Assembly (NCBI RefSeq): GCF_013401555.1
Contig: NZ_CP058552.1
Location: 310,001-374,000 of the forward strand
From: Paenibacillus sp. E222
GTDB taxonomy: Bacteria > Bacillota > Bacilli > Paenibacillales > Paenibacillaceae
Length of the DNA stretch: 64,000 nt
Direction: 5' to 3'
Positions 255-22,541 of this stretch are shown here, one piece after another (the first letter of the stretch is position 1; each line of letters begins with the position of its first letter). The notes under the pieces are model-generated. The model was not told where the DNA came from, made no database searches, and was given only the letters and a program-made list of their open reading frames with translations. The position numbers and the translations under genes are program-made.

Positions 255-836
255 CAATCCGTCATTTACAAATACGCTTTCTATGGTGATTGTGGACGTG
301 GAATGCATTATAAGAAGAACTTTAAGGGATATGTTTGGGGTACTATAACAAGCCAGGTAAAAACGGGAGAGTAAAGTGTAGTGACCATCTCGTACGTGAA
401 GCAGATTTAAAATTAGCTATTATCGAGGATATTCGAACGCTCGCATCCAATCTCTCAAATGCTACAATTTATAAAAAACTTGAAAATCAGCTACAGAAAA
501 TCAATTGGCAAAATGAAAAACAAATAAGTTCGGTAGAAAGTGAATTTGACAAGTTGAAAACTCGAAAGAAAAAAGCACGAGACAAAAATCTGGATGGCAA
601 CATGACAGATTTTGGCGTTCAGCGAATTAAAACAGCTCCTCGGAGAATTTTTGTCCTTCAGGGAGTTGACTCCAGAGATTTTGCACCGACTAATTAATCG
701 AATTGAGATTAAAGCAAACGAGAGTCCGAGAATCTTTTACAGATTCTCGAACCCTTCTGCTTATTCTTTAATCCTCACTATCATCGCAACGCTCTCCACA
801 TGCACCGTATGCGGGATCATGTGGGAGTTGGTTTGA
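255..836 (+). pseudogene. Remnant of a large serine recombinase (C-terminal part)
   Basis: Three short reading frames in succession encode pieces of the C-terminal half of a large serine recombinase. They are a degraded zinc-ribbon piece (DCGRGMHYK near 288), a piece with KCSDHLVRE followed by a coiled-coil stretch (335-610), and a tail with LTPEILHRLINRIEIK and PRIFYRFSNPSAY (612-780). Frame changes fall near 336 and 612, a stop lies at 252-254, and the N-terminal catalytic domain with its serine is absent, so it is inactive. The last frame runs through the 39-bp rlmCD-like att segment at 782-820, as is common for serine integrases whose 3' end overlaps the attachment site. It probably belongs to an element extending left of the window. 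Confidence 0.85.
782..820. repeat. att-like copy of the rlmCD 3' end (left)
   Basis: Read on the minus strand, this segment and the bases just left of it encode [19 protein letters not shown] and a stop, a displaced copy of the RlmCD C-terminus. By hand alignment 32 of 39 bases match 20820-20858, including an 11-bp identical core ACATGCACCGT and a following TGCGGGA. The best explanation is an integrase attachment site that left a substitute 3' end behind. The exact crossover bases are not known. Confidence 0.7.
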
Positions 837-919
837 ATCTGTATCAGTTGGCTAAAAGCCTTGATATATAGAGTGTTCTTGAAACGCAGACTATTCTTTT
901 TGTTTGGATTTTAATAGCT

Positions 920-960
920 GTTGACGTTGTTCGTCAACAAGTAGTCAACAACTATTGTTG
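920..960. repeat. Two adjacent small inverted repeats
   Basis: GTTGACG (920-926) and CGTCAAC (932-938) form a 7-bp hairpin with a 5-base loop. CAACAA (946-951) and TTGTTG (955-960) form a second one. They lie just inside the left att-like site in a gene-free stretch. There is no T-run on either side, so protein binding or a recombination accessory site is more likely than a terminator. Function unknown. Confidence 0.45.
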
Positions 961-1044
961 AATATCGATTTATTAAATCACGCAATAGGATGAGATCAAG
1001 GGGCGAGTTTAATTAGGTTCTCTGAAACCCATTTTAGTTTAAAA

Positions 1045-1152
1045 TCATTCCTTATTAGCACTTACGGCTTCATCCTTTTCACTTCCGAATGATCCGAAGC
1101 GTTTAGCACAGTCGGCAAGGTATTGCCTAAGCCCTGGCCAAACGCTCTCCAT
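1045..1152 (-). CDS. Possible 35-aa ORF or 3' gene remnant
   Basis: An ATG-started frame of 35 codons begins MESVWPGLRQYLADCAKRF. The frame stays open a few codons upstream and there is no convincing ribosome site, so this may be the surviving 3' end of a lost gene downstream of the DUF3883 gene. In canonical DISARM loci drmC would stand near here, but no HKD (PLD) motif can be seen. No family recognised. Confidence 0.25.
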   Translation of the reverse strand: MESVWPGLRQYLADCAKRFGSFGSEKDEAVSANKE

Positions 1153-1171
1153 CCGACTTCTATGAATTTTA

Positions 1172-1954
1172 TTATAATTGCTCCTTACTGATTGCCCAAT
1201 TTATAGAAATAGTTGTATACACATTTTTTTTCGCTACTAGTTTTTCATAAGGGTTTTGAATTAATTTAATATTGGGTATGCCATCCAGGTTACTTACCAA
1301 TACTAAAATATACCTTTCCCCCAATTCTTTTGCCACAATCCACTCTTTATCCGTAAATACTACTCCCCCAATTATAGCCGATAGCCCTTTAACCTCAAAG
1401 ACAAAAGGAAGGGATGAGTCCAGTTCAAAGTCAAAACCACAGCCATCATTTCTTCTATCTTTTAGCCCCCCTCCAAATCCGTCAATTTTATTCTTAAGGA
1501 ATGACTCATAAAAAAATTCTTCCGCTCTTTTACCCGTTATGCCTCTTGTACTAAATTTTCGAGTAGCGTGCTTTGTTTCATCATCTTCCTGTATTGTATC
1601 AATATATACTTGAATGTTTTTATCTAATTCAGTAGTCCGATTCAACGTACTATAAGATAAAATGTCTTTTACTATCCCCAATAATGCTGACTCACTCAAT
1701 TCCTCATATTTCTCCAAAACTTCAAGACGGCTTGGCCTCAGTTCTCTTTGATACCACCCTCTTCTATTATTAGGATGAAAGGGATCGAATTCATCTCTCA
1801 TATTCTTAATCGTATTAGGTTTAACACTTAGTTTAAAACCAATGTCTTCAAAAGCGGCTGTGAAATTTGAGTATCCAAGATTCTCTAAAGCTATCTCATT
1901 GTACTTTGAAAGAAAGTAAGCAACAATTAAAGCTAACTTATGATTATCCAGCAT
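1172..1954 (-). CDS. DUF3883-domain protein, nuclease-like
   Basis: A 260-aa protein. The N-terminal third is helical and could carry a winged-helix-like DNA-binding region. Residues about 138-235 form a DUF3883 domain: TGKRAEEFF at 140-148, then GFDFE (D175) and FEVKG (E187, K189). That D...ExK spacing is typical of PD-(D/E)xK nuclease folds. DUF3883 proteins are common in defence islands; the substrate is unknown. The ATG at 1954 is chosen because AGAGGTG lies 6 bases upstream; an in-frame GTG at 1963 overlaps that ribosome site. It follows drmB by 141 bp with a hairpin between, so it may have its own promoter. It takes the place where DISARM loci usually carry drmC (PLD), which it does not resemble. 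Confidence 0.75.
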   Translation of the reverse strand: MLDNHKLALIVAYFLSKYNEIALENLGYSNFTAAFEDIGFKLSVKPNTIKNMRDEFDPFHPNNRRGWYQRELRPSRLEVLEKYEELSESALLGIVKDILSYSTLNRTTELDKNIQVYIDTIQEDDETKHATRKFSTRGITGKRAEEFFYESFLKNKIDGFGGGLKDRRNDGCGFDFELDSSLPFVFEVKGLSAIIGGVVFTDKEWIVAKELGERYILVLVSNLDGIPNIKLIQNPYEKLVAKKNVYTTISINWAISKEQL

Positions 1955-2045
1955 TACGAACACCTCTTTTTTCTTACTTTATCAACACAGAATAAGAAAA
2001 TTTTTAATATATAAGCTACCAATGCTTACTAATACCAAATATTAA

Positions 2046-2078
2046 GACCCGAACGTGACGAAATGAGTCATTCGGGTC
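2046..2078 (-). terminator. Hairpin downstream of drmB, possible weak terminator
   Basis: GACCCGAA (2046-2053) pairs with TTCGGGTC (2071-2078), and inner TGAC/GTCA extends the stem after a two-base bulge. Only a short, mixed T/A tract follows on the minus strand, so termination may be partial and leave the DUF3883 gene linked to the operon. Confidence 0.5.
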
Positions 2079-2095
2079 ATTACAAAAAGAAGTTC

Positions 2096-3982
2096 TTATG
2101 AAAAATACCCTATCTGTTGAGAACCTGGCAAACCGACGGTCAGTCCCCTGTCTAGAAACCGGTTGAATTCTTCACATGCTGTTTCCGGCACAAGAGAGCA
2201 GCTATGGCAGGCGGCCAAGTTACAAGAATCAGGTCCTTGTGGCCCAATTTCGGAACAAATAGGATCTGAAGAACACCAACCTGCATTTATTAATGATTTT
2301 TGAATTACCTTCTCTAGATAGCCCGGCTTCCCCATTCGAACCAGTCCACCCATCGTTCCATCTGAATCACCTGCTGCGGTGTATATCAATATACCGTACA
2401 TAGGATTGGCTTCGTCATCGGATATGTACAATCGTTCTCTTAGTGAAGAAGAGCTATACCCGCATTCGAAAGTAAGCTGATTCATCAGAAGATGAGCAAA
2501 AGTATGAGCCATTACAAACCTAGGTGTAATTTGCTTTTCCCGAGTACGCCGATTCACGAGCAAATTTCTATAACGTTCTGCTAATGGTTGAAGTCTGGAG
2601 ACCACGTCGGCCTTGTCCTCCCACGTGTTTAATAGATCAGGATTGAATTTCAAGAAAATTCCTTCACCGTATACAACATAAGCGGGTAGCCAATTATCTG
2701 AGGACTCATCTGGTACACTCCGCCACATCTGATATTTCAATTGCTGAACGTCTGTAGGCCGATCATTAAAAACCCGGTTAAAACCCGCAAGCACCCGCGT
2801 TTCTTTTAATTTTTCTACCAGAAATACATCAGAAAAATATTTTTCCATATCAAACAGATTACTGTCATACTGTGCAAGTGGAATCCACCGGATTTTAAGA
2901 TCATCTTGATCCGAAGTTTCACTTAATACACTATACTCTTCTAGACGCAGAACTCTTTCTAAATCTGTACCGCCAGCCCCTTCGTTTTCTTCAATTTCAA
3001 TAGTCGCACGTTGCTCCAAGCTCAAAATCGCGCGCTTTATTTCAGCATCAGAATATGTTTCCAGCTCAATCCGAAACTGTGCACGGAGCTCATCCACTGT
3101 TTCTTCTTCACTTAAGTTACCCCGTTTTGAAAGATTCAGAATACGCACATATTGAGGCGATTGAAATAATTCAATCAATGTTTTGATTTGTCGACTTACT
3201 TCACCTGGTATATAAATCGCACTTCGGACTTGAGCGAAATAAACATTTGAAGCACTGCGGAGAGATCCCCTAAGATGGCATCTGCATGTTTCGCCATCCT
3301 CAGTACCAAGCCAGGGCCTTTTTCCCTGGCAGTAAAACACATTTCCGCCACCAACTAACTCTTTACTAAGTTCCGTGCTTCCATCCGGATGTGCGCTGGT
3401 TATTTTATTGAGCATACGGGGTTCTACTCCACACCCGCATTTTACTTGCATCGTCGTCAGCGCACCGCCGCCGGTACTTACCAGCTTCATCGTGGCAGTA
3501 CAAGATGGATTTGCTGAACGATGTACCCATTCACGCCACGGGAAATCTTGAATATGCCCGTTTTCGCATATTGCTATAAAGGGTACTTGCACCATAAACT
3601 TTTTGATGTTGTTAGCCTTACAAGTTGAGCATTCTTCCCTCGACTTAGTTGTAAGCTCCGTCTTTTTCATATCTCCGCAAAATGTGCAATAATGCCATTG
3701 TGGAAACCTTAAAAAGGGAACGGTCAAAAATTTATTATTCTCGCCTGCGCCTTTATAGCGGAAATCTGGTGGTAACCGAAAATGGTCTACCCCAAGCAAG
3801 CGTTCTAAACGCCACTCTTTGATTTTGTACTGTGATAGATCCACCCGCTCCGAAGATCCGTTTTTGTCCTTATACCAATGATCAAGTCCTCCACAAATAG
3901 CTGAGATTCCACTTTTCGATATAGACATTGCTCCGGTACCAAATGGGGCTATCATTTGTGCTCTGCGTATCGGATATACCAT
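2096..3982 (-). CDS. drmB: DISARM protein DrmB (DUF1998)
   Basis: A 628-aa protein that pairs with the DrmA helicase in DISARM, a multi-gene system that blocks incoming phage DNA. An N-terminal zinc-binding pair is visible (C99-x2-C102 and C118-x2-C121) after the segment IAPFGTGAMS. The C-terminal DUF1998 region has AHTFAHLLMNQL, then GILIYTAAGDSDGTMGGL and a Cys cluster (CSSDPIC, CNLAACHSC). Length and layout fit DrmB. The ATG at 3982 starts one base after the drmA stop and has GGAGG upstream; a longer frame to 4051 would overlap drmA by 68 bases and is less likely. Last gene of the coupled operon 9987-2096. Confidence 0.9.
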   Translation of the reverse strand: MVYPIRRAQMIAPFGTGAMSISKSGISAICGGLDHWYKDKNGSSERVDLSQYKIKEWRLERLLGVDHFRLPPDFRYKGAGENNKFLTVPFLRFPQWHYCTFCGDMKKTELTTKSREECSTCKANNIKKFMVQVPFIAICENGHIQDFPWREWVHRSANPSCTATMKLVSTGGGALTTMQVKCGCGVEPRMLNKITSAHPDGSTELSKELVGGGNVFYCQGKRPWLGTEDGETCRCHLRGSLRSASNVYFAQVRSAIYIPGEVSRQIKTLIELFQSPQYVRILNLSKRGNLSEEETVDELRAQFRIELETYSDAEIKRAILSLEQRATIEIEENEGAGGTDLERVLRLEEYSVLSETSDQDDLKIRWIPLAQYDSNLFDMEKYFSDVFLVEKLKETRVLAGFNRVFNDRPTDVQQLKYQMWRSVPDESSDNWLPAYVVYGEGIFLKFNPDLLNTWEDKADVVSRLQPLAERYRNLLVNRRTREKQITPRFVMAHTFAHLLMNQLTFECGYSSSSLRERLYISDDEANPMYGILIYTAAGDSDGTMGGLVRMGKPGYLEKVIQKSLINAGWCSSDPICSEIGPQGPDSCNLAACHSCSLVPETACEEFNRFLDRGLTVGLPGSQQIGYFS

Positions 3983-3983
3983 A

Positions 3984-6900
3984 CTATTCCAAATCCTCCA
4001 GTTCTTCAAGTTTATACAACACGGATATATCCCCCCGACATTGGGCATCAACGTTCCTTAATGACATCGGCGTTGCCAAGGAGAGCCTGGTTGAACGCTC
4101 ATCAGCATACTCTCCGGCGACTCGTAAGAGCGGATAGTCACCACCCTCGGCTGTTCCAGACCACTCAGAGGGATTTAGTTTCATCCAATGTGCAAGTCTT
4201 TTTTCAAAAACACGCTTAACGTTTTCCAATTCCTCAGGATCCGTGCGCTTCACACGCCGCACTAATATTTCCTCAAGTTGGTTCAGGATATCCTGTGGCA
4301 ATGGCCGCGGCGTATCAACTTCAACGGCATCACCGATTTGACGCACATAACCTACCATCACAGCATGGAGTAAGCGGTCAATGACAGCCGGAGAAAAAGG
4401 TGTAACACTAGTCGGTTCTACCTGGGCATATAGTTTTTCATGATAACTCCTGAACTTTTCATAGTGCGAGCGGTCACGCGGCTTTGATGCGCTGTATAAT
4501 GTCACGACTAACCCTGGCCTTTCGAACCAGCGACGGCCCACGCGACCGGTAACCTGGATGTATTGGCTGGTTGTCTTCGGCTGTCCTATAACGGCCATTA
4601 ATGAAAGACGGTCAATATCTATACCCACCTCAATAATGTTCGAGGCAAGACATACATCAATAGCCGTTCCACGCTTCACATCGGTTTTTAATTCACCAAT
4701 AGCAGCAGAAATTTCATCGCTGGTTAAACGGGATGTTAATTCCTTAATCCGGTTTAATCGGCGTAACTTGTCATAACCAATACCTTCCCTATTTTTGACC
4801 ACTTTTAGGTGGTTTGGAATGTCTGATTGCAATAGGGTGACAGTCGTACCTAATTCCCGTAGACTATTAAAAAATATTAGTAATGTCCACCATGGATCCC
4901 GCTCCCCTTCACCCATTTCAAAAGGTTTTTGCAGAAGAGCTGTTAAAGATCTCACTTGAAGTGTTTGCATAGATCCCAGACCTGGTGTGTTAATACCAAT
5001 ATACTTTCTCCCCGGCATTAATTTACCTTCTGTGTCAGTAGCATTTTGGGCGAAAAACGAATCATCCGCTTCAAGCCCTGGTGATGGAAACAGCCGAGTA
5101 TTCTCCCTAGCGTAAACATCCTTAACTTGTCTCTTGAATCTTCGTATTGTTGCCGTAGAACATACAAGCTTAGGGCGGACAGGCTCTTGTGCACGATAAT
5201 CCGTGCACAACTCTTCAATTAAAACTTCAAACAAACCGGTCATAGAACCCAGTGGACCTGAAATTAAATGTAATTCGTCTTGAATAATTAAACCCGGGGG
5301 AGAACAAAAACGCTCCCCGTCCGCACCAATACCAAACATCGCACGAGGCACGGAATTCCAGGCTAGCAGTGCAAATTTATCTACCGTTCCAATGACTAAA
5401 GTTGGTCTTTTGGAGTAGATATCTTCGTCCACTACATAGACAGGAAGTTCCTGGTTGAATATACAATCACGATCTGGACAGTGAATCATCACATTACCAG
5501 AAGATATTTTGTATCCATTAATATTGAATCCCAAGCCTTTTCTCTTACCGCGACCACTTCTTAGTCCGGATTCAGTTTTCCGGTTATCTGGTATTTTCCC
5601 CATTTGCGCTCCACACCAAGGGCAAGAGCGAACCAAAAACGGATTGTCCTCACTCGTTCCATTCTTCAAAGCTTTTAAATCAGCTAATGCGCCTTTGTGT
5701 GTGTTTGGTGTTGTATCTGATCCCAACCATATTCCTATTGAAAATGACTCGTCTCCCAAATCTATCTCATGTAGCTTTCGAATATATTCCATTGAACAAA
5801 TAAGCCTCGATGCTCTTTGAAATTGATCCGCAGTTAACAAGCGTAATGTATAACGCATAAGTACTTGGACACCTGTATCATAGGGGTCTCGTAGACGACG
5901 TAAGAACATAGAGTAGGCAGCTAAACCTAAATAGGCTTCTGTTTTACCTCCACCAGTAGGGAAAAAGATGAGTTCAACAGTTTCGCGTTCGTTAGAAAAG
6001 AAATTGGCAGTGGATTCAATTGACATCAACATAAAAGCAATCTGAAACGCACGCCATTTACCTTTATCTGTGCCAATGACATCAGGATTTGTATAAGGCT
6101 TACTAAAAAGAACACCACTCTCAGTTACTTCTGATTCCCGAACGACTGTACCAGTTATCTGCTGGAGCAGCATGGCATAATTCGCCAGTTGAAAAGCCTT
6201 TAACGCTTCTAAATTATTCTTAAGATAATTAAGTCCTTGTTCCATCCTGTCTGCGCATTCACTACAAAGAAGCAGGTTTCTTTCCGCCACTTCTTGTAGG
6301 TGTTTATCCAACTTCGGAATCGTTAATCTCTTCTTCTCGATCCATTCCCTATACAAATTTACTATTTCTTCTAATTCATTGAAGCCATGATCGCTGCTTG
6401 AATCGAGACCTGCCAATGTCCTCATGGAAACTTCAATATCGGAACCGTCCCCTCGCTTAATTGCAGGTGTCATACTCTTTGTTTCATAGCTAGGGAGAAA
6501 CTCGGTTCTTACGCTTTCCACTTTATCACCGGTCATATCCCAATCTGCAGAACAGCCATGTCCCACAGCGTATGTCTTCATCGAGCGATATAATAAGGCA
6601 AGTGATTGTTCCTCTTCATCAGCATCTGTTGGTTCTACAGCCTCCGGATAAGGCAGAATGCCTACGCTTTGATCTGCTTGATTTAACGGAAAAATATCTG
6701 CTGTAAATTGTGACTGGAATAAACTGACACTATCAACTGATGTATTACCTCCAAATTCGGAACGATTAACCAAGCTTACAGTAATTAGACGGCTACCATC
6801 TTCAATTGGCCTCGACAGAATCTGCACCTGCAAGTTTAGACCGTCTGTATTGTCGGCCTCAATTACCCGGCCTGTTAACAACACATGTCTTTCCGTATTT

Positions 6901-7481
6901 AACTCTTCAGCTGAACATGTGACTTTCATACTTACAGGTGATCGAACCCACCACTTTCTTTCCCTTTTATCCCCTTCTATCCTCGCTTTAAAAGAATTAT
7001 AACGTCCACCGGTTACAAATATTCTGAGCTCCGATTCAGGATTAAGGATAGCACGAAAACTTACTGCCATACTGCTTTGTTGATAGTCATTTGCTGATGA
7101 AATATCCAATTCGGAATCTTCATCATTTTTGTTGGAACTATTTCGCGATTCAATTTCCTCAATTTCTCTCGTATTGACAAGCTGGATAGCATCCGAATCT
7201 GCCGGGTCTAACTGATGATCTTCACTTTCATCACGACCGATACCGTAAGGGTAAAGAATTGCAGCCCCGTATCGTCTGCTGGGTTGCTCATGTAAAATCT
7301 CCTCTCCCGTCTCCTTATTTCTGTATGGCCTGTAATATTCTTCTTTACTTTTAAATAACACATCCGTCTGGCAACTAATTGACATACTGTTGTCTGAAAC
7401 AGCAGGCCCGATAAATTCCCGCCTCAATGCCTCAAAAAGCTGATCCCTGTTTTTCATATTTTTCTGCAGTTCGGTTAACAT
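3984..7481 (-). CDS. drmA: DISARM helicase DrmA
   Basis: A 1165-aa superfamily 2 helicase, the motor of DISARM. Motifs in order: Walker A PTGGGKT at 508-514, a zinc-ribbon insertion (CPWC at 620-623, CPDRDC at 668-673), DELH at 735-738, STAT at 775-778, ASNIIEVGIDID near 946-957 and arginine-finger GRVGRR at 979-984. The first 480 residues have no obvious motif, as in other DrmA proteins. The start is supported by AGAGGTG eight bases before the ATG; it overlaps the previous gene by 7 bases, showing tight coupling. Together with DrmB it forms the DISARM core shared by both DISARM classes. Confidence 0.92.
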   Translation of the reverse strand: MLTELQKNMKNRDQLFEALRREFIGPAVSDNSMSISCQTDVLFKSKEEYYRPYRNKETGEEILHEQPSRRYGAAILYPYGIGRDESEDHQLDPADSDAIQLVNTREIEEIESRNSSNKNDEDSELDISSANDYQQSSMAVSFRAILNPESELRIFVTGGRYNSFKARIEGDKRERKWWVRSPVSMKVTCSAEELNTERHVLLTGRVIEADNTDGLNLQVQILSRPIEDGSRLITVSLVNRSEFGGNTSVDSVSLFQSQFTADIFPLNQADQSVGILPYPEAVEPTDADEEEQSLALLYRSMKTYAVGHGCSADWDMTGDKVESVRTEFLPSYETKSMTPAIKRGDGSDIEVSMRTLAGLDSSSDHGFNELEEIVNLYREWIEKKRLTIPKLDKHLQEVAERNLLLCSECADRMEQGLNYLKNNLEALKAFQLANYAMLLQQITGTVVRESEVTESGVLFSKPYTNPDVIGTDKGKWRAFQIAFMLMSIESTANFFSNERETVELIFFPTGGGKTEAYLGLAAYSMFLRRLRDPYDTGVQVLMRYTLRLLTADQFQRASRLICSMEYIRKLHEIDLGDESFSIGIWLGSDTTPNTHKGALADLKALKNGTSEDNPFLVRSCPWCGAQMGKIPDNRKTESGLRSGRGKRKGLGFNINGYKISSGNVMIHCPDRDCIFNQELPVYVVDEDIYSKRPTLVIGTVDKFALLAWNSVPRAMFGIGADGERFCSPPGLIIQDELHLISGPLGSMTGLFEVLIEELCTDYRAQEPVRPKLVCSTATIRRFKRQVKDVYARENTRLFPSPGLEADDSFFAQNATDTEGKLMPGRKYIGINTPGLGSMQTLQVRSLTALLQKPFEMGEGERDPWWTLLIFFNSLRELGTTVTLLQSDIPNHLKVVKNREGIGYDKLRRLNRIKELTSRLTSDEISAAIGELKTDVKRGTAIDVCLASNIIEVGIDIDRLSLMAVIGQPKTTSQYIQVTGRVGRRWFERPGLVVTLYSASKPRDRSHYEKFRSYHEKLYAQVEPTSVTPFSPAVIDRLLHAVMVGYVRQIGDAVEVDTPRPLPQDILNQLEEILVRRVKRTDPEELENVKRVFEKRLAHWMKLNPSEWSGTAEGGDYPLLRVAGEYADERSTRLSLATPMSLRNVDAQCRGDISVLYKLEELEDLE

Positions 7482-9987: not shown

Positions 9988-10045
9988 TGATTATCATCCT
10001 TTAGTTCTTTATGCCTAACTTTTTTACATGTTAAAATTCGACATT

Positions 10046-10290: not shown

Positions 10291-10294
10291 ATTT

Positions 10295-10826: not shown

Positions 10827-10843
10827 AATTCCCACTCTCTTTT

Positions 10844-13484: not shown

Positions 13485-16018
13485 TTCATCACCTTTTGCT
13501 GTAGGAAATCCAAAGACAACCTTGTTTTTTGTCCAATGCTTGCCTCAGAGAAACGGTATTTTATATAATTTGCTATATCATTTAAACAGTTCAGATAAAT
13601 GTTCCGGATTCTTATTTGTGCCTGTTGCAAAATATTCCCTGTTAGTTCTGCGGAACTGGAATAAGAAACATCCCATATTCCACCATCAAAGAAAATGTGT
13701 GGATACCTTTTGAATATATCAGTTATTCCATCCTCATCAATATATAATAAAAACGCGCCACTTTCCTTCATATCCCCGAGCTGACTGATATCAGCGCTTT
13801 GATTAAGCATGTTATCAACCATAGCTTTCTTCTGCCCTTCGGGCATTTCATTAAAAATATCAACGGCCATTTCCTTTAGGAGTTCCGGAAGCTTCTCCTT
13901 TAATTGGGCAAAGAATCCGTTGATCTCTTCTCTTATTTTCTCAGGGCTATCCTCTAACTTATCCGACCATCTGCTATTCAATATCTGCCATTCAATATTA
14001 GAAAGCGTATGTTGACCCTGATATTGTTTTCCGGAGAGTCTTCGGTTCATATCGTAGATGTAAAGTGCTACCTCTGCGGCTATCATTTGCTCTGGACGGA
14101 TTCGGAAAGACTTATATACTTTGTGCGTCTTATCAAGATATATATCGATTTCTTCCCCTTTAAAAGCAATAAGAGGGACCCCTTCTTGTTGCTGATTAGC
14201 CTTAATCGATAGCTGTGTTATATACACATTTACATTCACAGGGGAACTATATGTGCCATCAGCTAACATAATAGAACATCCCGGTATGGAAAGATCATCT
14301 GATTTATTAGCATTCTTAGAAAGGAACTCTTTTGAAAGTGTATTCTCGGAACCTTTTTCTTCATTACAGGATGTACAGTTTTTTTCTGCTGCCCTGTTTT
14401 TCATACCGCAAACCTGGCATGTCCATGGTTCTTCGACTTTTGGATGCTGTGACATTCCGCATTCTGGACAAGAGTGTGCGGATTTCGGTATTTCGTTTTC
14501 ACATTCCGGATTGATACATGGCTTACCTATTAATACAAAACCACATACGGCACACGTATCATGTTCTTTAAGATTTTGTGCACTGCAGGCTGGGCACTCT
14601 GCAAGTTCCTCAAGCGGAGGGGAATCAGCCTGTTCCACGAGCTTCCACCATTCTGAATCATCATAATACCCTGGGAGTTTCACAAGAAATTTTTGATAAT
14701 ATTCTTTTTCAACATCTCTAGATATCCTCTTTGATTCATTCGCTTCCTTATCCCAATACCCCATATACAAATCAGATTTTCCAGGTTTTCTTACTCTGCG
14801 GAAACCTTGAAACAATTTATAAATATAACTTTCATTTTGACCTGCACCAGGCTGAGTTGGCTGTAAGGAACTGTCACCTCTTAAATACGAAATAGCACGT
14901 TGCCATTCAGGACTGCTTCGCTGAAAATCCTGCTTGAGAAAATCTACAGGAACATGATTGAGATGTACTTCACCTACTATCCTCCCATACGGCCCATCAA
15001 TAGGGTAATCTTTAATCGTTTTTTTAAATTCGTCAACAAATTCAAAAAAAGCTGTCTTTTCAGCTATTCGGATTGCTCGTCCATTCCGGATCAGATCAAT
15101 TCCGTACTCCGTACTGTCGTCAAACCTCTGAATACCAACCCAGCCTTTGACTCTTTCCTCAACACTTCGAATGCTTGAAGATTTGCAAGCAGGACATTCA
15201 ATTAGTCCGGTCGGTACTAGAGCTGTACAGTTACCGCATCTCCTCTGCACTCCTATAATATGGTCAAAATCATATCTTGCCTGAATCTGACCGTGCCCTT
15301 TTCGCTCAACATATCTATTGGAATCCCAAACGCAATGCTCAAATGCTTCACACGGCTCTCCATTCACCAATATTCTAATTTCACGTTTAGATAACACTGA
15401 AGCATACCGTCGGCCAATCTCAGAACGGACCTTAGGAAGCCCGTATTGAATCAGGCGTTTGACAAATTGACTGTTTGCATTCCCCTCAGGCCACCAATGG
15501 CTTATTTCAATAACAGTCCCATAATTGACTTCTCTAGGTTTATCAACGATATTAACAGGAAGCTGATAATTTTTGGATTGATTAATATTATCCAGATCAA
15601 TAATAACCTCTATTGCCTTCTTCTCATCCTTCCGAGCTGTCAGTAGCCGGGTTACTCTACCTAATTTACCTGTAGAAATATTAAACCCCATACCAAATAA
15701 TCCGAGACTGTCGTAAGGGTTATTACCAGAGAATCCCGCCTTTATTGATTTCTCAGCCATTTCAGCCGTCATGCCTGGCCCATTGTCACGAATACGTACT
15801 ATTCCTGCATTTTTATTGAGATCTGAATTTCTTGGCAATTCAATTGAGATTAATGGATTATCTATTTTTACACCTATAAGTTTAGCAGCCTGAAATGAAT
15901 CTATCGCATTATCGATCAATTCACATAACGCATCTAAAGGAAGCATTGGTGTGTGAGTTAAAGCTATCAGCACTTTTGGATCCGGTGTAAAATCAAAAAA
16001 CAACCCTGGCTGTATCAT
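13481..16018 (-). CDS. MORC-like GHKL ATPase with zinc ribbons
   Basis: An 845-aa GHKL-fold ATPase related to MutL/Hsp90 and to eukaryotic MORC proteins. The Bergerat ATP site is intact: ELIDNAID (33-40), DNGPGM (78-83) and GLFGMGFN (106-113). An S5-like domain follows, interrupted by a zinc ribbon (RRCGNC...CPAC). The second half contains at least three further CxxC zinc ribbons (CPAC/CAVC, CINPEC/CPEC, CQVC/CTSC) and then a helical C-terminus. Such proteins are thought to clamp or reshape DNA. The ATG overlaps the methylase stop (ATGA), so subunits are made together. Confidence 0.9.
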   Translation of the reverse strand: MIQPGLFFDFTPDPKVLIALTHTPMLPLDALCELIDNAIDSFQAAKLIGVKIDNPLISIELPRNSDLNKNAGIVRIRDNGPGMTAEMAEKSIKAGFSGNNPYDSLGLFGMGFNISTGKLGRVTRLLTARKDEKKAIEVIIDLDNINQSKNYQLPVNIVDKPREVNYGTVIEISHWWPEGNANSQFVKRLIQYGLPKVRSEIGRRYASVLSKREIRILVNGEPCEAFEHCVWDSNRYVERKGHGQIQARYDFDHIIGVQRRCGNCTALVPTGLIECPACKSSSIRSVEERVKGWVGIQRFDDSTEYGIDLIRNGRAIRIAEKTAFFEFVDEFKKTIKDYPIDGPYGRIVGEVHLNHVPVDFLKQDFQRSSPEWQRAISYLRGDSSLQPTQPGAGQNESYIYKLFQGFRRVRKPGKSDLYMGYWDKEANESKRISRDVEKEYYQKFLVKLPGYYDDSEWWKLVEQADSPPLEELAECPACSAQNLKEHDTCAVCGFVLIGKPCINPECENEIPKSAHSCPECGMSQHPKVEEPWTCQVCGMKNRAAEKNCTSCNEEKGSENTLSKEFLSKNANKSDDLSIPGCSIMLADGTYSSPVNVNVYITQLSIKANQQQEGVPLIAFKGEEIDIYLDKTHKVYKSFRIRPEQMIAAEVALYIYDMNRRLSGKQYQGQHTLSNIEWQILNSRWSDKLEDSPEKIREEINGFFAQLKEKLPELLKEMAVDIFNEMPEGQKKAMVDNMLNQSADISQLGDMKESGAFLLYIDEDGITDIFKRYPHIFFDGGIWDVSYSSSAELTGNILQQAQIRIRNIYLNCLNDIANYIKYRFSEASIGQKTRLSLDFLQQKVMK

Positions 16019-17133
16019 ATAGGTTCCCCCTCTATCATTTTCCTTATTGCTACCGCCATTGCATGTGCCAGCTTCACTGGCACGCCGTTACCGATTGTTT
16101 TGAACTTATAAGTTAGTGGCATTTCCGGCGGTAAAACATAGTCATCCGGAACACTCTGAATTCTTAGTGCTTCCCTGACAGTAAGCCTCCTTGGTTGTGT
16201 CGGATGCAAGTGAACCTCATTATGACCGTATGCCGCAGTAGGGCTATATCGCCAACGATGCAGCCGTTTAAAACTTTTTCGGGAAACATCCCCTTCATGA
16301 ATAACATAATACTTATCACTTAATGGCCTTAATCCTTCAAGACCGTTTGGCAATAAAGCTATCTCATCCAGATTACATATTATTGGACCCACCATTAATT
16401 CTTCTGGAATATCAGAGGGTTTCTCGGGATTGAATCCAAAAGGGTTTTCCCGCGGCCAAGTAAACCGCTGTTTCGCTCCCGCAAAACGGTGGTCCTCCGG
16501 CCATTGAAACCAGTTATAGTCCTTGGGGATATTCCTTACACCAAGTTTCTTTTTTAGCCACTTCTTTTTCAGCCCCACCATAAACACGCGTTCCCTGTCT
16601 TGTGGCACACCGAAATCGAGCGCATTCAATATGCGTACATCTGTCAAATAGTGTTCTGAAAACTGCATTCTCAGACTATCGAAAAACTCACGATGTTTTG
16701 CAGTTTTAAAAAGCCCTTTTACATTTTCAAATAAAAAAAAGGATGGCTGAAGATCCATTATTTTATCAACGTACACCTTTGAGAGGGTTCCATTTTCTCC
16801 AGTCCGTCCCTTATTTTTTCCGCCTACCGAAAAGTCAGGACATGGAGGCCCTCCAATAATCCCGAATGTTTCAGGAATTTGGGTATTATGAAAGGCCTCT
16901 TTGGCGATTTGATTAGGACCTATCTCAACTATTGAAGAACAGTTAGTGATTTTATGAGGCTGCACCCTCATGGAACTAAGTCCATATTCAAACCCCTTCA
17001 CAAACTGACGATCATATTCGTTAGACCAAATCGTTTGAAATCCTGCTTGCATAAAACCGATATCTAGAAATCCTGCACCAGTAAAAAAGGATAAGATAGG
17101 TATCGGTATTGTATTGATATAAAAATTGTTCAT
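16015..17133 (-). CDS. DNA (cytosine-5) methyltransferase, intact
   Basis: A 372-aa 5mC methylase with all catalytic motifs: SFFTGAGFLDIGF (I), GGPPCPDFS with the catalytic Cys (IV), FLFENVKGL (VI), QDRERVF (VIII), RRLTVREALRIQ (IX) and IGNGVP (X). The ATG at 17133 is chosen because AAAGGATG lies seven bases upstream; a TTG at 17169 is in frame but lacks a site. First gene of the MORC restriction operon, divergent from a second, broken 5mC methylase. The stretch EGDVSRKSFKRLHRWRYSP before motif IX is almost identical in both, so they may recognise related sites. Confidence 0.93.
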   Translation of the reverse strand: MNNFYINTIPIPILSFFTGAGFLDIGFMQAGFQTIWSNEYDRQFVKGFEYGLSSMRVQPHKITNCSSIVEIGPNQIAKEAFHNTQIPETFGIIGGPPCPDFSVGGKNKGRTGENGTLSKVYVDKIMDLQPSFFLFENVKGLFKTAKHREFFDSLRMQFSEHYLTDVRILNALDFGVPQDRERVFMVGLKKKWLKKKLGVRNIPKDYNWFQWPEDHRFAGAKQRFTWPRENPFGFNPEKPSDIPEELMVGPIICNLDEIALLPNGLEGLRPLSDKYYVIHEGDVSRKSFKRLHRWRYSPTAAYGHNEVHLHPTQPRRLTVREALRIQSVPDDYVLPPEMPLTYKFKTIGNGVPVKLAHAMAVAIRKMIEGEPI

Positions 17134-17185
17134 TTCAATACATCCTTTCACACTCGCCACACAAGTCAAGTATTCTTAAATTGTA

Positions 17186-17193
17186 CCGTACGG
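17186..17193. promoter_or_regulatory. Palindrome CCGTACGG in the divergent methylase promoter
   Basis: The sequence GTACCGTACGGAAAA begins at 17183 and contains this perfect 8-bp palindrome. A nearly identical stretch, GTACGGTACGGAAAA, occurs at 19167 inside the start of the restriction enzyme gene. It could be an operator for the controller protein or chance. On the minus strand a TATAAT (17240-17235) is a possible -10 box for the MORC operon; no good -35 was seen. Confidence 0.3.
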
Positions 17194-17287
17194 AAAAATT
17201 TAAAAGGGAGATTTTAACTTGAATCATACTACATATTATACCTAAAATCCTCCAGGGAACATATATTCGTTTTTTCCTGAAAGTTTA

Positions 17288-17316
17288 TTGAATATCCTTC
17301 GATAATCGGTGATAAT
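17288..17316 (+). promoter_or_regulatory. Sigma-A-type promoter of the second methylase
   Basis: TTGAAT (17288-17293), a 17-base spacer and GATAAT (17311-17316) lie 40 bases before the ATG at 17356. A GAGGAG ribosome site follows at about 17338. Confidence 0.65.
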
Positions 17317-17355
17317 AGAAAATAGCATTCAAGATAGAGGAGACTTATTAAAATA

Positions 17356-18494
17356 ATGACCTATCCCGTTATTTCGCTTTTTTCTGGTGCAGGCTTTCTC
17401 GATTTAGGCTTTACCGAGACGCATGCTTTTTCTATTATTTGGGGAACAGAATTAATAAAACAATTTGCTCAGTCAAATAACTACAACATGAGGCAGCGTT
17501 ATGGACATCCTGATAGAATTATCACAGGTGACGTTACTCAAATTGATCCTATAAAAGACATTCCCAAAGGTGCAGTTGGAATCATTGGGGGGCCCCCATG
17601 TCAAGACTATTCAATTGGAAATGCTAATAGTCCTGGGGTTGAGGGAGATAGAGGGAAGCTTGTCTGGGACTTCTTAGATAAAATTGAGAAACTGAAGCCA
17701 GACTTTTTTTTGTTTGAGAACGTTGAAGCCTTATACAAAACAAAAAACATCGAATTCAGGCTTTAAATCCTCTCATTGATAAATTTGAGGAGCTTGGCTA
17801 TGAAGTACAATTTAAGGTGCTTAATACGCTTAACTATGGAATTCCGCAAGATCGGTCAAGAGTATTTATTGTAGGATTTAGGAAATACATTCCTATTACT
17901 TTAAGACAGCGGGGCTTTGAAACTTTTAAATGGCCTGCTCCGGTCTATCAGGATCCTAAAAAATCATTTGAATGGCCTGATACATGGGAGATCGGGACTG
18001 AAGTTAGTGAAGCTGACTACATTGCTAATCTCGCACCCGATCAATACCAACTAACCATTCATTCGGTTATAGGAAACCAAAACGAATTATTACAATTGCC
18101 AAATCATGTTTCATTTAATCCCTACTCTCAACGATTTTTCACCGTACTTGAAGGTGACGTTAAGAGGAAATCATTCAAACGCCTACACCGCTTCAGATAT
18201 AGCCCAACCGTAGCATATGGTAATAATGAGGTACATCTTCACCCTACTCTACCGCGGCGCTTAACCGTGCGTGAAGCACTTCGGCTCCAATCTGTCCCTG
18301 ACTGGTATCATTTTGAGGAAGATATACCGCTAGATAAGATGTTTAAGATGATAAGCAACGGAGTAGCCTATAAACTTGCAAATTTATTAGCGGAAGAGAT
18401 TAGAACAGTTCTAGATAACTACAACATTGCGGTTCAGGAACGCACAGAAAAGATAAGATTAACAAATGAAACTATTAACAAAAATTCTGTATAA
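17356..18494 (+). pseudogene. DNA (cytosine-5) methyltransferase of the Bse634I-like system, frameshifted
   Basis: Two frames together make a full 5mC methylase. The first (17356-17766) carries SLFSGAGFLDLGF, GGPPCQDYS and FLFENVEAL, then ends after YKTKNIEFRL. The second supplies HRIQALNPLIDKFEELG and onward, with IPQDRSRVF, RRLTVREALRLQ and ISNGVA, ending at 18494. Adding one A to the A6 run at 17742-17747 restores a continuous protein of about 379 aa. As written, the product stops after motif VI and cannot methylate. The break is either a recent mutation, a phase-variable slip or a sequencing error. It is the cognate methylase expected next to the restriction enzyme at 19129. Confidence 0.88.
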
Positions 18495-18504
18495 CATCCC
18501 TAGA

Positions 18505-18540
18505 AGAGCAGTTCGCATAATATGCGAACTGCTCTTTTTC
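18505..18540 (+). terminator. Terminator after the second methylase
   Basis: AGAGCAGTTCGCATA (18505-18519) and its exact reverse complement (18521-18535) flank one base and are followed by TTTTTC. The stem is long and perfect. Confidence 0.9.
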
Positions 18541-18769
18541 TATTAAATTTGTAAAAAAATTGAGAGAAACTGTCTGATACGTTAATAAAGCTTGTTAGGA
18601 TCCTCCTTAATAGTATCACCGTTTTTCAAAGTGTTATTATACATGATTTTAAAAACAACAAGTTATCTGGCACATCTCTTAAAATGAATTTATTTTTCTT
18701 TTTTTATAGGAAATAATGATTCATTTTTCACCGTCCTCTTTGCAGATATACTCCAATTAAGGAGGTGAC

Positions 18770-19129
18770 ATGGTGAATCTAAATTTAAAAGAGGTGGGTA
18801 AGCGGATTAGACTCGTGAGAAAGAGCCGTTATAGGACAGCGAAGGCTTTTTCCGAGTTTTTAGGCTTGTCTGAGCGTCACATTCATAATATTGAATCTGG
18901 AAAAAACCTGCCTAGTTTCGAAATCTTAGCTCAAATCACAAATGAGTTTCATGTAACAATTGATTTCATTTTATTTGGTCAAAAAAGAGGGTTAGTGTAC
19001 GAAGAAAATTGGGATGCCTTACTAAATACATTTAACAGTCTGAGTCCAGATGGACGGCAAACTTTATTTCACATCGCTAAAGAACTACTAAGATTGGAAA
19101 ACAAAATAACAGGAGGTAACTCAGAATAG
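18770..19129 (+). CDS. XRE-family controller protein of the type II system
   Basis: A 119-aa protein with a Cro/C1-type helix-turn-helix at residues about 8-63 (VGKRIRLVRKSRY, LSERHIHNIESGK, FHVTIDFILFG) and a short helical tail. It stands directly before the restriction enzyme gene with a one-base overlap, the usual place of a C (controller) protein that delays nuclease expression. AAGGAGG precedes ATG 18770 by four bases, and the GTG next to it is the alternative start. No certain C-box was found in 18541-18769. Confidence 0.85.
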   Translation: MVNLNLKEVGKRIRLVRKSRYRTAKAFSEFLGLSERHIHNIESGKNLPSFEILAQITNEFHVTIDFILFGQKRGLVYEENWDALLNTFNSLSPDGRQTLFHIAKELLRLENKITGGNSE

Positions 19130-20019
19130 TGGAATTTGACTATTTGAAAAGCTATAGCGTTGAACTGTACGGTACGGAAAATAACCAAAAAACACGGATA
19201 AAACCCTCTATAGCTCTAGCTGAGGTATATGGAGATAACCTCCCGACAGGAACTATTAAAGAAAACCTCGACAAACTTGAAATGCACACAAAGAATGCAG
19301 CATTGGCACAAAACATGATGGTTCCTAATTCACAAGCTTTCTCAAATACCCGGGGATTCTGGTTTGAAGTTTTCATAGCTGTCCATGCTTGGAATTACCG
19401 TATTAGACACAATCTAGATGACGTGTTGATCGTTAAAATGCCCAACGTTAGCTCATTTGATTTCCGTAGAATTTTTGAAGAAAAAACAGATAGAATGCTA
19501 AAACAACTGGAAATATCGTTACTTAAAAACAATGTGCGGTTGATCACTTCAAATCCAGATTTATTAATAGTAGAACAAGAAGACCTAATATTGGATGAAC
19601 ATAACATACCCATATCCTGTCTTGGTACTCAAAATATTATGGATGCCGTTAATTTATATAAGATCCTCGAAAATAAGTGTCGTTGGAATAGCCTGAAAGC
19701 AGGAATAGGGGTCAAAACATCTTTACGTCCTGATAGAAGGCTCCAAGTCGTACACGAAGGCAACATTCTAAAATCATTATTTGCTCATTTGAAGATGCGT
19801 CACTGGAACCGGGAGGCAAACTTTAAATATTATGGTGCTTCTAGTGAGATTATAAGTGGTGCTGATGATGATGCCTTACAAACAGCAGCAACCCATACTA
19901 TTGTTAATGTAGATTCCTTGCCTGAGAGAGCAGTGGATGGTCTTTACTCCCTCCTTACTTTTGATGACATAGAAAAAATGCTTAATACGATCTTAAAAAC
20001 AAAAGCCCCCCATCAATAG
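19129..20019 (+). CDS. Type II restriction endonuclease, Bse634I/Cfr10I family
   Basis: A 296-aa enzyme strongly resembling Bse634I (R^CCGGY, a tetrameric type IIF enzyme) along its whole length, as remembered from the family. Matching blocks include PTGTIKENLDKLE, FSNTRGFWFEV, RLITSNPDLLI, KTSLRPDRRLQVVHEGNIL and KYYGASSE. The family catalytic residues appear as E80, D144, K196 and E210, all conserved. The GTG start overlaps the controller's TAG; AGGAGG lies 11-12 bases upstream. The gene looks intact although its methylase is frameshifted, which implies protection from another methylase, loss of expression, or an error in the methylase sequence. Confidence 0.93.
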   Translation: MEFDYLKSYSVELYGTENNQKTRIKPSIALAEVYGDNLPTGTIKENLDKLEMHTKNAALAQNMMVPNSQAFSNTRGFWFEVFIAVHAWNYRIRHNLDDVLIVKMPNVSSFDFRRIFEEKTDRMLKQLEISLLKNNVRLITSNPDLLIVEQEDLILDEHNIPISCLGTQNIMDAVNLYKILENKCRWNSLKAGIGVKTSLRPDRRLQVVHEGNILKSLFAHLKMRHWNREANFKYYGASSEIISGADDDALQTAATHTIVNVDSLPERAVDGLYSLLTFDDIEKMLNTILKTKAPHQ

Positions 20020-20079
20020 AGACGGGAGACTCTAAAGAATAACGCTAAAATAATTTTAAACAATTCGCCGTCATTTAAT

Positions 20080-20120
20080 AAGGAGCATTGAAATTGAATT
20101 CACTATTAATGCTCCTTTTC
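20080..20120 (+). terminator. Terminator after the restriction enzyme gene
   Basis: AAGGAGCATT (20080-20089) pairs with AATGCTCCTT (20108-20117) across an 18-base loop, followed by TTC. Confidence 0.75.
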
Positions 20121-20654
20121 TAAAAGCTCAGTTTTTAGATTATGTTCAAGAAAATCAGCCAATTTTCGAGATCATTCGTGCGTTGACCACCGTACATAGT
20201 GCAACGTGGGAACAGCATTTGCCTTGATATAGGAAAAGGCGGAAGCGTGAGGCGGACCTCAGAAGCGAGTGTATCAAATCGGTGTCTACGACACGTTTCG
20301 AGGATGGGGTGTTTATTCTACGAGTCGGGTCCGCTCATAAGCATCGCTATCTTGTATCGCTGTACAAAAGAAATTTGCCTATATAGGCTGTATTATCATT
20401 TTGAACGCAAAAAGCAACAGCAAGGTCCCTTCAGTGATAAAATACCTGAGGAATAAGATCACGAACAAGTTTATGTAAACCGTAATGGGCATTCAACCTT
20501 TGCATTTTAGTTAATTTTCATCTGTAACACCCTTTCATCTTAATCGTCATAAATTAGGAACTATTCTTTCAAGTACTAGAATCAACCACGCTGTTAATAT
20601 ATTTCTGTACTAGTAACCGGAAACCTCTGGATAAATCCTTTTTATTTCTTAATA
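20121..20654. other. Right end of the island, no supported gene
   Basis: All six frames are broken by stops or lack starts and ribosome sites. One frame holds CIKSVSTTRFEDGVFILRVGSAH, possibly coding relic, but no family is recognisable. No recombinase gene is present at this end. Confidence 0.5.
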
Positions 20655-20683
20655 TAAAAACACCTGAATGCAACTCCAGGTGT
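20655..20683 (-). terminator. Terminator of rlmCD
   Basis: On the minus strand ACACCTG (20683-20677) and CAGGTGT (20666-20660) form a stem followed by TTTTT. It lies 110 bases beyond the rlmCD stop and, if the att reading is right, inside the inserted element. Confidence 0.8.
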
Positions 20684-20792
20684 CCTTGACTAGCGTGTCT
20701 ATTTTTTCGTCACCAATCAGCCAACTCTAGTATTTTTACGCTTCAGTTTCATTTCATCTGTATTACCCCACACCCACTCCATCACTGCATTC

Positions 20793-22541
20793 TTAGCCCT
20801 CTGTACCATTCCGCACCAACATCGCCACCGACTCAACATGCACCGTGTGCGGGAACATATCCACCGGCGTTACCTCAACCGTCCGATATCCGCCATCCTC
20901 CAGCACGCGCAAATCACGTGCCAATGTACTCGGATTACAGCTTACATACACCACACGCTCCGGCTTCATTTCCAGGATTGTATCCAGCAAGCGCGGATCG
21001 CAACCCTTCCGCGGCGGATCGACAACGATGACATCAGCTTCAATGCCTTGTTCTTTCCAACGCGGAATAACATCCTCGGAGGCACCGACTTCAAACTTGA
21101 CGTTCTTCATGTCGTTCAACATCGCATTGCTGCGAGCGTCTTCGATGGCTTCGGGCACGATCTCCACCCCGTACACCTGATCCGCATGCTGCGCAAGGAA
21201 AAGAGAAATCGTACCGATGCCGCAATAGGCATCAATGACAGTCTCTTTGCCACTCAACCCTGCGTACTCCACCGTTTTCCCGTACAGTACTTCCGTCTGC
21301 ACCGGATTCACCTGGTAGAACGAACGCGCAGAGATGGCAAACTGTACATCCCCGATATAATCATAGATCACGTCACGACCCCACAGGACGCGGGTTTCAT
21401 CGCCGAAGATAACGTTGGTCTGCTTCTTGTTCACATTCTGGCAGATGCTCGCCACATGCGGGATCGCTTCACGAATACTGCCAATCCATTCATCCTTGTA
21501 TGGGATGTCCCGACCATTGGTGACCAGAACGAGCATCATCTCGCCCGTACGGAACGCCTTCTTCACAACCACATGGCGCAGCAGGCCGCGGCCGGTCTCT
21601 TCGTTGTACGCACTAATGCCGAGATGGCTACCTAGCTCCTTGACCTTGGCGACCACTTCATCGTTGTGCTCATGCTGAATGAGGCAAGTATCCATGTCGA
21701 TGATCCGATGGCTTCCTTTGGCGTAAAAACCACCCACCAAGCCGCCCTCGGCTGCACCGATAGGCACCTGTGCCTTGTTGCGATAGCGCCACGGCTCGTC
21801 CATACCCATGGTAGGCAGCACACGAATGCCTTGCGCAGCAGCTTCTTCGTTCATGACACCTTCCAGCCGAAGACGAATACGATTGCTGCCGTTCACTTGT
21901 TCTTCGGAAATAGCTGGTTCAGCTGCCTGATCCGCATTCTTTTCGCCTGTATCCTCCACCAACACATTCAACTTCCCAATCCGCTGCAAATTATCCACCA
22001 CCAGCTGGCGTTTCCACGCAAGCTGTCCGGCGTAACTCATATGCTGAATCTGGCATCCGCCGCATTGATCATAGATCGGGCAAGGCGCGGATACACGATC
22101 CGGGCTTGCCTTCACAATCTCCAGCAGTTTGGCGTAGCCGTACTGCTTTTTGGTTTTCATCACGCGCACACGCACAGTTTCACCGGGAAGCGCACCCTGC
22201 ACAAAGAGCGTGTATCCATTGGCACGGCCGACACCTTCACCGTCATGGTTCATGCCAATGATATCGATGACGGTTTCTTCATTTTTACTAACGGGCAGCC
22301 CTTCGATTGGTGCAGATTCACGCGCTCTCTCCTTTGGACGAACGGCAGAAAGAGATGCGCCTTGTGGCCGCACCTCTTTTCCTTGCTGACGTGTAGATGG
22401 ACGAGATGTTTGACTTGGCTGACGGGACACTGAAGCATTCCCTTGCCCCTGAGAGGCAGCCGAATTCCGGCGGTTTTTTCCACGACCGCTGCGGTTCGTA
22501 TTAGACAACGTACATTCACTTCTTTCTTCATATATGTTCAT
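20793..22541 (-). CDS. rlmCD: 23S rRNA (uracil-5-)-methyltransferase RlmCD
   Basis: A TrmA/RumA-family enzyme that uses SAM to make 5-methyluridine in 23S rRNA (U747 and U1939 in Bacillus). A basic, low-complexity N-terminal extension of about 90 residues precedes a TRAM domain ([16 protein letters not shown]), an iron-sulfur cysteine motif ([11 protein letters not shown]) and the methylase domain with [22 protein letters not shown] and the catalytic Cys in VSCNPSTLA. The start is uncertain: ATG 22541 is used here, but frames reach 22613. The last 22 codons overlap the att-like site 20820-20858, so the 3' end was probably supplied by the integrated element. Downstream of dgkB, as in Bacillus. 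Confidence 0.93.
20820..20858. repeat. att-like site in the rlmCD 3' end (right)
   Basis: This segment encodes the intact RlmCD end ([12 protein letters not shown]). It matches 782-820 at 32 of 39 bases, with ACATGCACCGT at 20836-20846 identical. It marks the right border of the defence island; chromosomal rlmCD sequence continues to the right. Confidence 0.7.

Follow-up and report, generated by a model that had tools for sequence, protein, structure and literature searches.

A defence island at the 3′ end of rlmCD in Paenibacillus sp. E222 with a MORC operon and two Cfr10I/BsrFI-kind methylases, a Bse634I-like endonuclease and a DISARM variant

Prokaryotic MORC proteins are found in restriction-modification (RM) operons, and the helicase group 1 of these operons, as set out in excerpts of Iyer, Abhiman and Aravind 2008 (PMC2292703), joins a MORC protein to a superfamily 2 (SF2) helicase with an N-terminal restriction endonuclease-fold nuclease and to a C5 cytosine methylase. 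The type II restriction endonucleases (REases) Cfr10I, Bse634I and BsrFI have the recognition site RCCGGY, according to a passage of PMC2413257. In DISARM, DrmC is dispensable and frequently absent, as stated in an excerpt of PMC9142583. Relatives of all three systems lie side by side in Paenibacillus sp. E222, within a 64,000-nucleotide stretch (the window; positions 310001-374000 of a single 7.52-Mb contig), and are designated here group (a), a DISARM-like operon, group (b), a MORC operon, and group (c), Bse634I-like type II genes (Table 1). The MORC operon is accompanied by a second methylase in all seven closely related loci, and the type II endonuclease is an optional addition to it. The titles and abstract openings retrieved from the literature included no MORC operon with paired RCCGGY-kind methylases and no DISARM with a split DrmE.

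Table 1. Features of the island and its borders (window coordinates)
Feature	Position	Strand	Evidence
Serine-recombinase-like gene tail, in two frames	335-782	+	Ends at left att-like copy; remnant of neighbouring element
Left att-like copy, degenerate rlmCD 3′ end	772-820		49 bp, 79.6%, E 1.6e-4
NOV_C (NO VEIN C-terminal) protein, PD-(D/E)xK-like, 263 aa	1172-1963	-	Pfam PF13020 1.4e-10
DrmB (MZB/DUF1998)	2096-4051	-	PADLOC 3.9e-78; NCBIfam DrmB 441 bits, cut-off 240
DrmA, YprA-family SF2 helicase	3984-7481	-	PADLOC 2e-207; PDB 7s9v DrmA 1.4e-138
DrmE C-terminal two-thirds, 513 aa	7475-9016	-	PF24957 5.5e-9
329-aa protein beside DrmE C-terminal gene	8998-9987	-	tblastn matches in 8 of 10 related loci; profile match in G169
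u240, conserved last gene of MORC operon, C-terminal VOC-like fold	11029-11751	-	
Cassette common to window and G121	11201-18591		96.4% DNA identity; from within u240 to just past M2
Mrr-type nuclease fused to SF2 (ResIII) helicase	11748-13484	-	PF04471 2.7e-17, PF04851 1.5e-32
Prokaryotic MORC (GHKL ATPase + S5), zinc-ribbon-like stretch	13481-16018	-	MORC3 5ix1 E 0.0012
M1, C5 cytosine methylase, Cfr10I/BsrFI methylase kind	16015-17169	-	PF00145; 44-45% to pBsrF30 methylase
M2 N-terminal piece, second C5 methylase	17356-17766	+	98% to intact G121 ortholog
M2 C-terminal piece	17817-18494	+	96% to G121 ortholog; 66% to pBsrF30 methylase
Helix-turn-helix (HTH) controller-like protein	18770-19129	+	HTH_3 1e-8; 33% to HTH gene before pBsrF30 REase
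Bse634I/Cfr10I-family REase, full length	19129-20019	+	PF07832 3.7e-83; Bse634I 1knv 8.6e-115
rlmCD	20793-22613	-	3′ end 20810-20858 = right att-like copy; Pfam tRNA_U5-meth_tr, TRAM

Group (b) is a helicase group 1 MORC operon. The MORC protein has all four of the motif patterns sought (N-box, G1, G2 and S5, the last as GIDLIRNGRAI at residue 306), the SF2 helicase with its endonuclease-fold nuclease and a cytosine methylase stand alongside, and the genes for M1, MORC, the Mrr-helicase and u240 overlap head to tail. The Mrr-helicase carries the motifs GAD..QMK and DECH, and ATGLGKT was recognised by eye, a Walker A pattern search having found none; the zinc ribbon of MORC scores 26.4 bits, under the cut-off of 27.3. 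Vsr endonuclease genes near the MORC methylases of two relatives (L039 7541-8026 in G229 and L044 11523-11948 in G200) are a further likeness to group 1. Set against the portion of PMC2292703 used here, the operon differs in having two Cfr10I/BsrFI-kind methylases, the conserved u240, an optional type II REase and a slot for systems with a YprA-family helicase. The u240 family has 242 matches, with no Pfam domain among the 120 listed, and the resemblance of its C-terminal part to VOC/glyoxalase folds carries no functional implication. Residues 70-87 of u240 form a strongly conserved motif, HVDSVLGGSGSSRNQPET. Eukaryotic MORC relatives work on methylated chromatin; we know of no experimental trial of how bacterial MORC proteins act.

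Among 394 family genomes, which were also used for the co-occurrence counts of the three groups, 17 match MORC. Seven of these, including that of the window, are strong matches (70-100% identity over nearly the whole length), and one match of 33% identity (G070) and nine weak ones, which were taken as other ATPases, were set aside. Outside the family, MORC has no match in phages, is found in plasmids only as distant forms (6 records, 3 opened) and at E <= 1e-30 is present in a 398-genome class sample only in the window's own genome. The seven strong loci and G070 were opened, and the neighbouring genes were domain-scanned in part. Each of the seven carries a second methylase beside M1-MORC-helicase-u240. 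In five, the window included, it is a divergent M2 (63-98% identity by piece in the other four), and in G229 and G068 it is a methylase of another clade that lies upstream and is encoded on the same strand. Of the 255 family genomes in which its distribution was followed, 3 have M2 at an identity of at least 60%, all with MORC, and three further genomes have relatives of 40-51% identity and no MORC match. M2 thus belongs with the MORC operon in relatives and not only with the REase. Two side observations concern these loci: in G068 (L040 9265-10408) M1 matches lie in three frames and the second methylase is open, a mirror image of the window, and in G038 (L041 16399-19977) SIR2-like, GHKL-ATPase and another C5 methylase gene adjoin the MORC cassette.

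This pairing bears on the view that three independent systems were stacked by repeated insertion at a hot spot, with M2 being the partner of the Bse634I-like REase, orphaned where the REase was lost, and its adjacency to MORC and DISARM being functionally meaningless. In G229 the methylase of the other clade has an REase of a second family (PADLOC PDLC03534) with it beside MORC, and in G145 the same REase family and methylase clade form a plain type II pair with no MORC match, as independent assembly would produce. However, chance is unlikely to have placed Cfr10I/BsrFI-kind methylases, drawn from two clades, next to M1-MORC at 7 of 7 loci, or to have retained a methylase without a recognised REase in 4 of 7, and on these grounds we hold independent stacking to be unlikely.

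The kind of methylase involved can be judged from relatives. M2 groups with the methylase of pBsrF30 (Geobacillus subterraneus CPW16) with support of 99/99; this methylase shares 66-68% identity with the pieces of M2 in the window and 59-63% with the four M2 orthologs, and the REase beside it is 63% identical to that of the window. DNA of Bacillus stearothermophilus CPW16, by our reading the same strain, is reported in an excerpt of PMC8112702 to be RCCGGY-methylated (3,050 of 8,133 sites), with the modification matched to BsrFI. The other clade, that of the G229 and G068 methylases, joins methylases that neighbour Cfr10I-family REases in Moraxella and Nostoc (support 100/100). M1 stands as a separate clade (96/98) among Cfr10I/BsrFI-kind methylases, and its three best plasmid records, among the 40 listed of 684, are the pBsrF30, Moraxella and Nostoc methylases (a fourth plasmid match, of 41% in Rhizobium, is unannotated). 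Identity between M1 and the pBsrF30 methylase is 48% in the specificity region (motifs VIII-IX) and 48% over the rest of the protein, and the specificity regions of the pBsrF30 and Moraxella methylases are also 48% identical. In the same region, the window M1 is 34-44% identical to members of the other clades, and the family as a whole is 14-21% identical to two outgroup methylases. These values fit, and do not prove, a CCGG-core target shared by M1 and its relatives, and the specificity of M1 would be of the RCCGGY type.

Group (c) shares with the Bse634I, BsrFI and Cfr10I systems an REase of the Cfr10I/Bse634I family, an HTH gene before the REase, as on pBsrF30, and the kinship of M2 described above. 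It differs from them in that the M2 kind of methylase also stands beside MORC without a recognised REase, and in that M2 is here frameshifted. The REase, which lies behind M2 and has Bse634I as its closest match, has no match in phages and occurs on 3 plasmid records, all of which were opened. M2, its candidate cognate methylase, is of the right kind and is split into two pieces near 17.74 kb as sequenced, a true lesion and a read error being indistinguishable; the ortholog in G121 is intact with 379 aa. A PF00145 scan of the whole genome (7.5 Mb) recovered only M1 and the two M2 pieces, as did a search with the G121 M2 at E <= 1e-50. No intact C5 methylase other than M1 was thus found, in a scan that did not extend to adenine or N4-cytosine methylases. 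RCCGGY occurs 52 times in 104 kb of this genome, and an active REase would therefore need protection. If the M2 lesion is real, an expressed REase would be tolerated through M1, which would then be its obvious protector.

M2 may also have been intact in life, broken only by a homopolymer reading error, or may work as two polypeptides, leaving a normal Bse634I-type system. The lesion falls in a run of A. Four insertions or deletions separate the cassettes of the window and G121, and no other of them is located well within a gene: one is in the start region of M1, and two are between genes or after them. Each piece matches part of the C5 methylase family, and split C5 methylases exist. Against this, the genome is finished as a single contig. 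We consider an M2 that functions in life possible, though not what we expect. Nothing would then follow about M1, and such an M2 is compatible with the other readings and leaves the pairing with MORC neither strengthened nor excluded.

G121, another species, carries M2-M1-MORC-helicase-u240 also at rlmCD, without the REase and without DISARM. The rlmCD flanks of the two genomes are 83% identical, compared with 96.4% over the cassette, outside which lie both DISARM and the HTH and REase genes. PF07832 was found in 2 of the 394 genomes, that of the window and G178, both of which have MORC; with the window excluded, there is a 1.5% chance that the sole other REase genome falls among the 6 of 393 that have MORC. 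In G178, contig C13 carries the MORC cassette, its M2 directed outwards over the end of the contig, and the HTH-REase genes are at the start of contig C57, so that the REase apparently lies just behind M2 there as well. The ends of C13 and C57 presumably carry the halves of an IS30-like element. With G178 counted, an REase is present at 3 of 7 MORC loci, and none was recognised among the partly scanned neighbours in the other four. The REase is an optional add-on to the MORC module.

A second variable position lies beyond u240. In G121, DruF, DruE and DruK follow u240 directly, and G038 (L041) likewise carries DruF (71% identity) and DruE (82%) at this place, the 20 kb fetched for this locus showing no match to rlmCD. 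DruE was found in these 2 of the 7 MORC genomes, only beyond u240, at E <= 1e-30. A system with a YprA-family helicase therefore follows u240 in 3 of 7 MORC loci, DISARM in the window and Druantia in the two relatives. A further likeness to Druantia types II and IV is that M1 matches the PADLOC DruM2 model best (495 bits); unlike these systems, the window's genome has no DruE at E <= 1e-30.

We favour, with modest confidence, a modular island in which the RCCGGY-kind methylases belong to a MORC module, a type II REase answering to the same kind of mark is optional, and a slot takes YprA-helicase systems. The core would be an RCCGGY-type RM module, M1-MORC-(Mrr nuclease-helicase)-u240, accompanied by M2 as a second methylase of that kind, the add-on would be the Bse634I-like REase and its controller behind M2, sparing the same methylated sites, and the slot beyond u240 would hold a YprA-helicase system, here the DISARM variant and in relatives Druantia. 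M1, together with M2 where it is intact, would mark RCCGGY-type sites of the host, and the type II enzyme would cut unmarked incoming DNA. The MORC complex may also recognise unmarked DNA, the GHKL clamp holding or looping it and the Mrr-helicase translocating and cutting, and DISARM would attack unmodified DNA with 5′ overhangs, with the NOV_C protein as its predicted nuclease. That MORC and the type II unit act under one mark is moderately supported; a compound of all three systems is not established. RCCGGY-kind methylases in a MORC operon offer a defined sequence that can be assayed with commercial enzymes, and one mark shared by several restriction engines would, if confirmed, explain how defence islands exchange parts without self-damage.

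Several observations weigh against the modular reading. The HTH and REase genes lie outside the cassette shared with G121, which also speaks for independent stacking, and the Bse634I-like REase is absent from 5 of the 7 MORC genomes. In G178, C13 and C57 are linked across a break between contigs whose ends do not overlap. G070 shows only one methylase, and distant MORC loci (Rhodococcus, Deinococcus, Pseudosulfitobacter; 3 of the 6 plasmid records) have one methylase or none adjacent, and the methylase pairing is therefore a feature of this MORC clade and not a general one. The identity of M1 to methylases with known partners is no more than about 40-45%, and that of its specificity region to the family is 34-48%, so that its site may differ and be another with a CCGG core. 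Site-specific avoidance of RCCGGY was not seen (52 sites against 66.6 expected, with related CCGG words about equally low). If the M2 frameshift is a sequencing error, the argument for obligatory protection by M1 falls away. All three modules occur together in just one of the 394 genomes, that of the window.

Like DISARM class 2 (the drmE type), group (a) unites DrmA, DrmB (DUF1998) and the C-terminal domain of DrmE in a single operon. It differs in that DrmE is apparently divided between two genes, in having neither DrmC nor a methylase, and in carrying a predicted NOV_C nuclease. The 513-aa protein aligns with residues 289-745 of a 797-aa DrmE-like protein (hhalign probability 96.3), and the full-length DrmE model NF038323, with a cut-off of 250 bits, gives 31.3 bits over residues 512-699 of 785. 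The adjoining 329-aa protein is possibly the separate N-terminal part of DrmE; hhalign found no sequence link to the DrmE N-terminus (probability 0.4, reversed control 0.1), and its predicted structure has a pLDDT of only 71. No PLD nuclease or DrmC match was found among the scanned genes of the window, and the NOV_C gene occupies the usual DrmC place. The NOV_C protein has the motif FDFE..EVKG, which we take to be a nuclease motif and which is kept in a relative of 40% identity behind drmB in Roseithermus (L011, 1 of 10 loci). DrmMI and DrmMII are absent from genes 1172-9987, the nearest methylase being M1 in the next operon. Because the DrmA-DrmB core is present, and DrmC, a methylase and a full DrmE are missing, group (a) is, as judged from its gene content, a real variant of DISARM.

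Scoring 7,993 candidates out of 5.8 billion proteins gave 8 relatives of the 513-aa protein, and a search with the 329-aa protein gave 3, one of them the window's own. Alignment-based searching of a collection of 84,980 species found 10 group (a)-type loci, with the order u329-DrmE part-(further gene in some)-DrmA-DrmB where the contig reaches; L011 has a 371-aa gene at the u329 position and L014 is cut by the contig end. Unlike class 2, these relatives gain a NERD-UvrD helicase between the DrmE part and DrmA (L010, 11532-13280) or an Mrr-type protein, in G169, which has the same split DrmE pair with DrmA-DrmB. Genes similar in size to that of the NERD-UvrD helicase occupy the same place in L011, L012 and L013. 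Relatives of the DrmE part were not found in viral contigs, and canonical DrmE (NF038323) matches 3 of 151 class genomes, none above the cut-off.

The co-occurrence of the groups speaks to whether DISARM belongs with the rest. Group (a) was found in 2 of the 394 genomes, strong MORC in 7 and the Bse634I-like REase in 2, and groups (a) and (b) are together only in the window's genome; (a) is present without strong MORC in G169, and 6 of the 7 MORC genomes lack (a), a distribution that suits independent stacking. Elsewhere, matches to the DrmE part (P0002, 70%), the 329-aa protein (P0010, 65%) and u240 (P0014, 69%) are each on one contig of 50,154 bases, which suggests that a second organism carries (a) and (b) together on a 50-kb contig; contig sizes likewise agree for the adjacent pair P0003/P0011, taken as a control. 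P0004, from a 6.75-Mb record, has no u240 partner on an equal-sized contig among the 120 listed of 242.

The island might be fully compound, with the 5-methylcytosine (5mC) of M1 also licensing the methylase-free DISARM (Druantia in relatives) and so governing three engines. The absence of a methylase from (a), the recovery of no intact C5 methylase other than M1, the YprA systems beyond u240 and the probable 50,154-bp contig are all consistent with this, as is the lowering of Serratia DrmAB ATPase activity by 5mC in an excerpt of PMC9142583. In the same sense, C5 methylases matching M1 lie near 3 of the 10 relatives of (a) (L010, L011, L013). On the other side, the (a)-type operons of Nostoc L007 and L009 lack this kind of methylase in the fetched flanks, G169 has (a) without strong MORC, and here a 1-kb gap with no shared operon separates (a) from (b). 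DISARM also restricts phages without its methylation sites, again according to an excerpt of PMC9142583. We judge a fully compound island very improbable. The related proposal that the M1 mark serves as a shared self-licence, sparing RCCGGY-type host sites from the REase and the MORC machine and licensing a slotted DISARM or Druantia, seems decidedly doubtful; if true, defence engines could be swapped without bringing their own methylase.

The original prediction, made from the letters of the window alone, had described a DISARM-like operon without a methylase of its own, a MORC operon and a Bse634I-like system between two att-like copies of the rlmCD end. All three are present as placed, with boundaries that need redrawing, M2 pairing with MORC. 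The domain matches bear out a MORC, Mrr-helicase and C5 methylase operon and the lack of a methylase in (a). The DISARM label holds for DrmA, DrmB and the DrmE C-terminal domain and fails for DrmC and full-length DrmE, and the Bse634I label holds for the REase, the methylase being frameshifted and grouped with MORC. Of the proposed single compound system with two methylases, what survives, in altered form, includes the MORC pairing of both methylases, which are of the kind found next to RCCGGY REases, and the presence of MORC in the other Bse634I genome; the three-way set does not survive. Co-travel of all three operons is not supported, since in the 394 genomes they occur independently and one genome, that of the window, has the full set.

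The att-like repeats flank the island at rlmCD, as in an integrative element. The gene name is that of the original prediction, the Pfam matches themselves being tRNA_U5-meth_tr and TRAM. Both copies said to bound the island were found, and almost no other cargo lies between them, as had been claimed; they are not the sole copies. The left copy was recovered also by a whole-genome search with the rlmCD 3′ end (E 5.9e-5), which gave a third firm copy at genome position 291631 (E 4.8e-6). Since the left copy is identical to the rlmCD end of G121 at 23 of 23 bases and the third shares 35 of 36, both were taken as probable insertion relics. Weaker copies at 291991 (26 bp, 92%) and 307376 (34 bp, 82%, E 0.007) were seen in local searches only and missed by the whole-genome search at E <= 1e-3. 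The further copies upstream make a tandem array likely, of which the defence island is probably the last cell, and they also accord with stacking by repeated insertion. G+C is lower across window positions 1001-20000 (~36-46% per kb) than in the right flank (mostly 44-54%).

No intact integrase or recombinase was found among the island genes scanned. The frameshifted recombinase-like tail is outside the island, beside the left att-like copy; a 40-aa piece of it (663-782) matches DUF4368 (E 7.4e-5, 23.3 bits, below the family cut-off of 25), a domain presumably tied to serine recombinases, and 335-697 alone gave no family match. The region upstream of the island that holds the one firm and two weaker rlmCD copies (genome 291606-307409, L002) includes, between 291991 and 307376, a biosynthesis-like cluster of radical-SAM, adenylation, carrier-protein and FkbM-methyltransferase genes, with ABC transporter genes recognised by eye.

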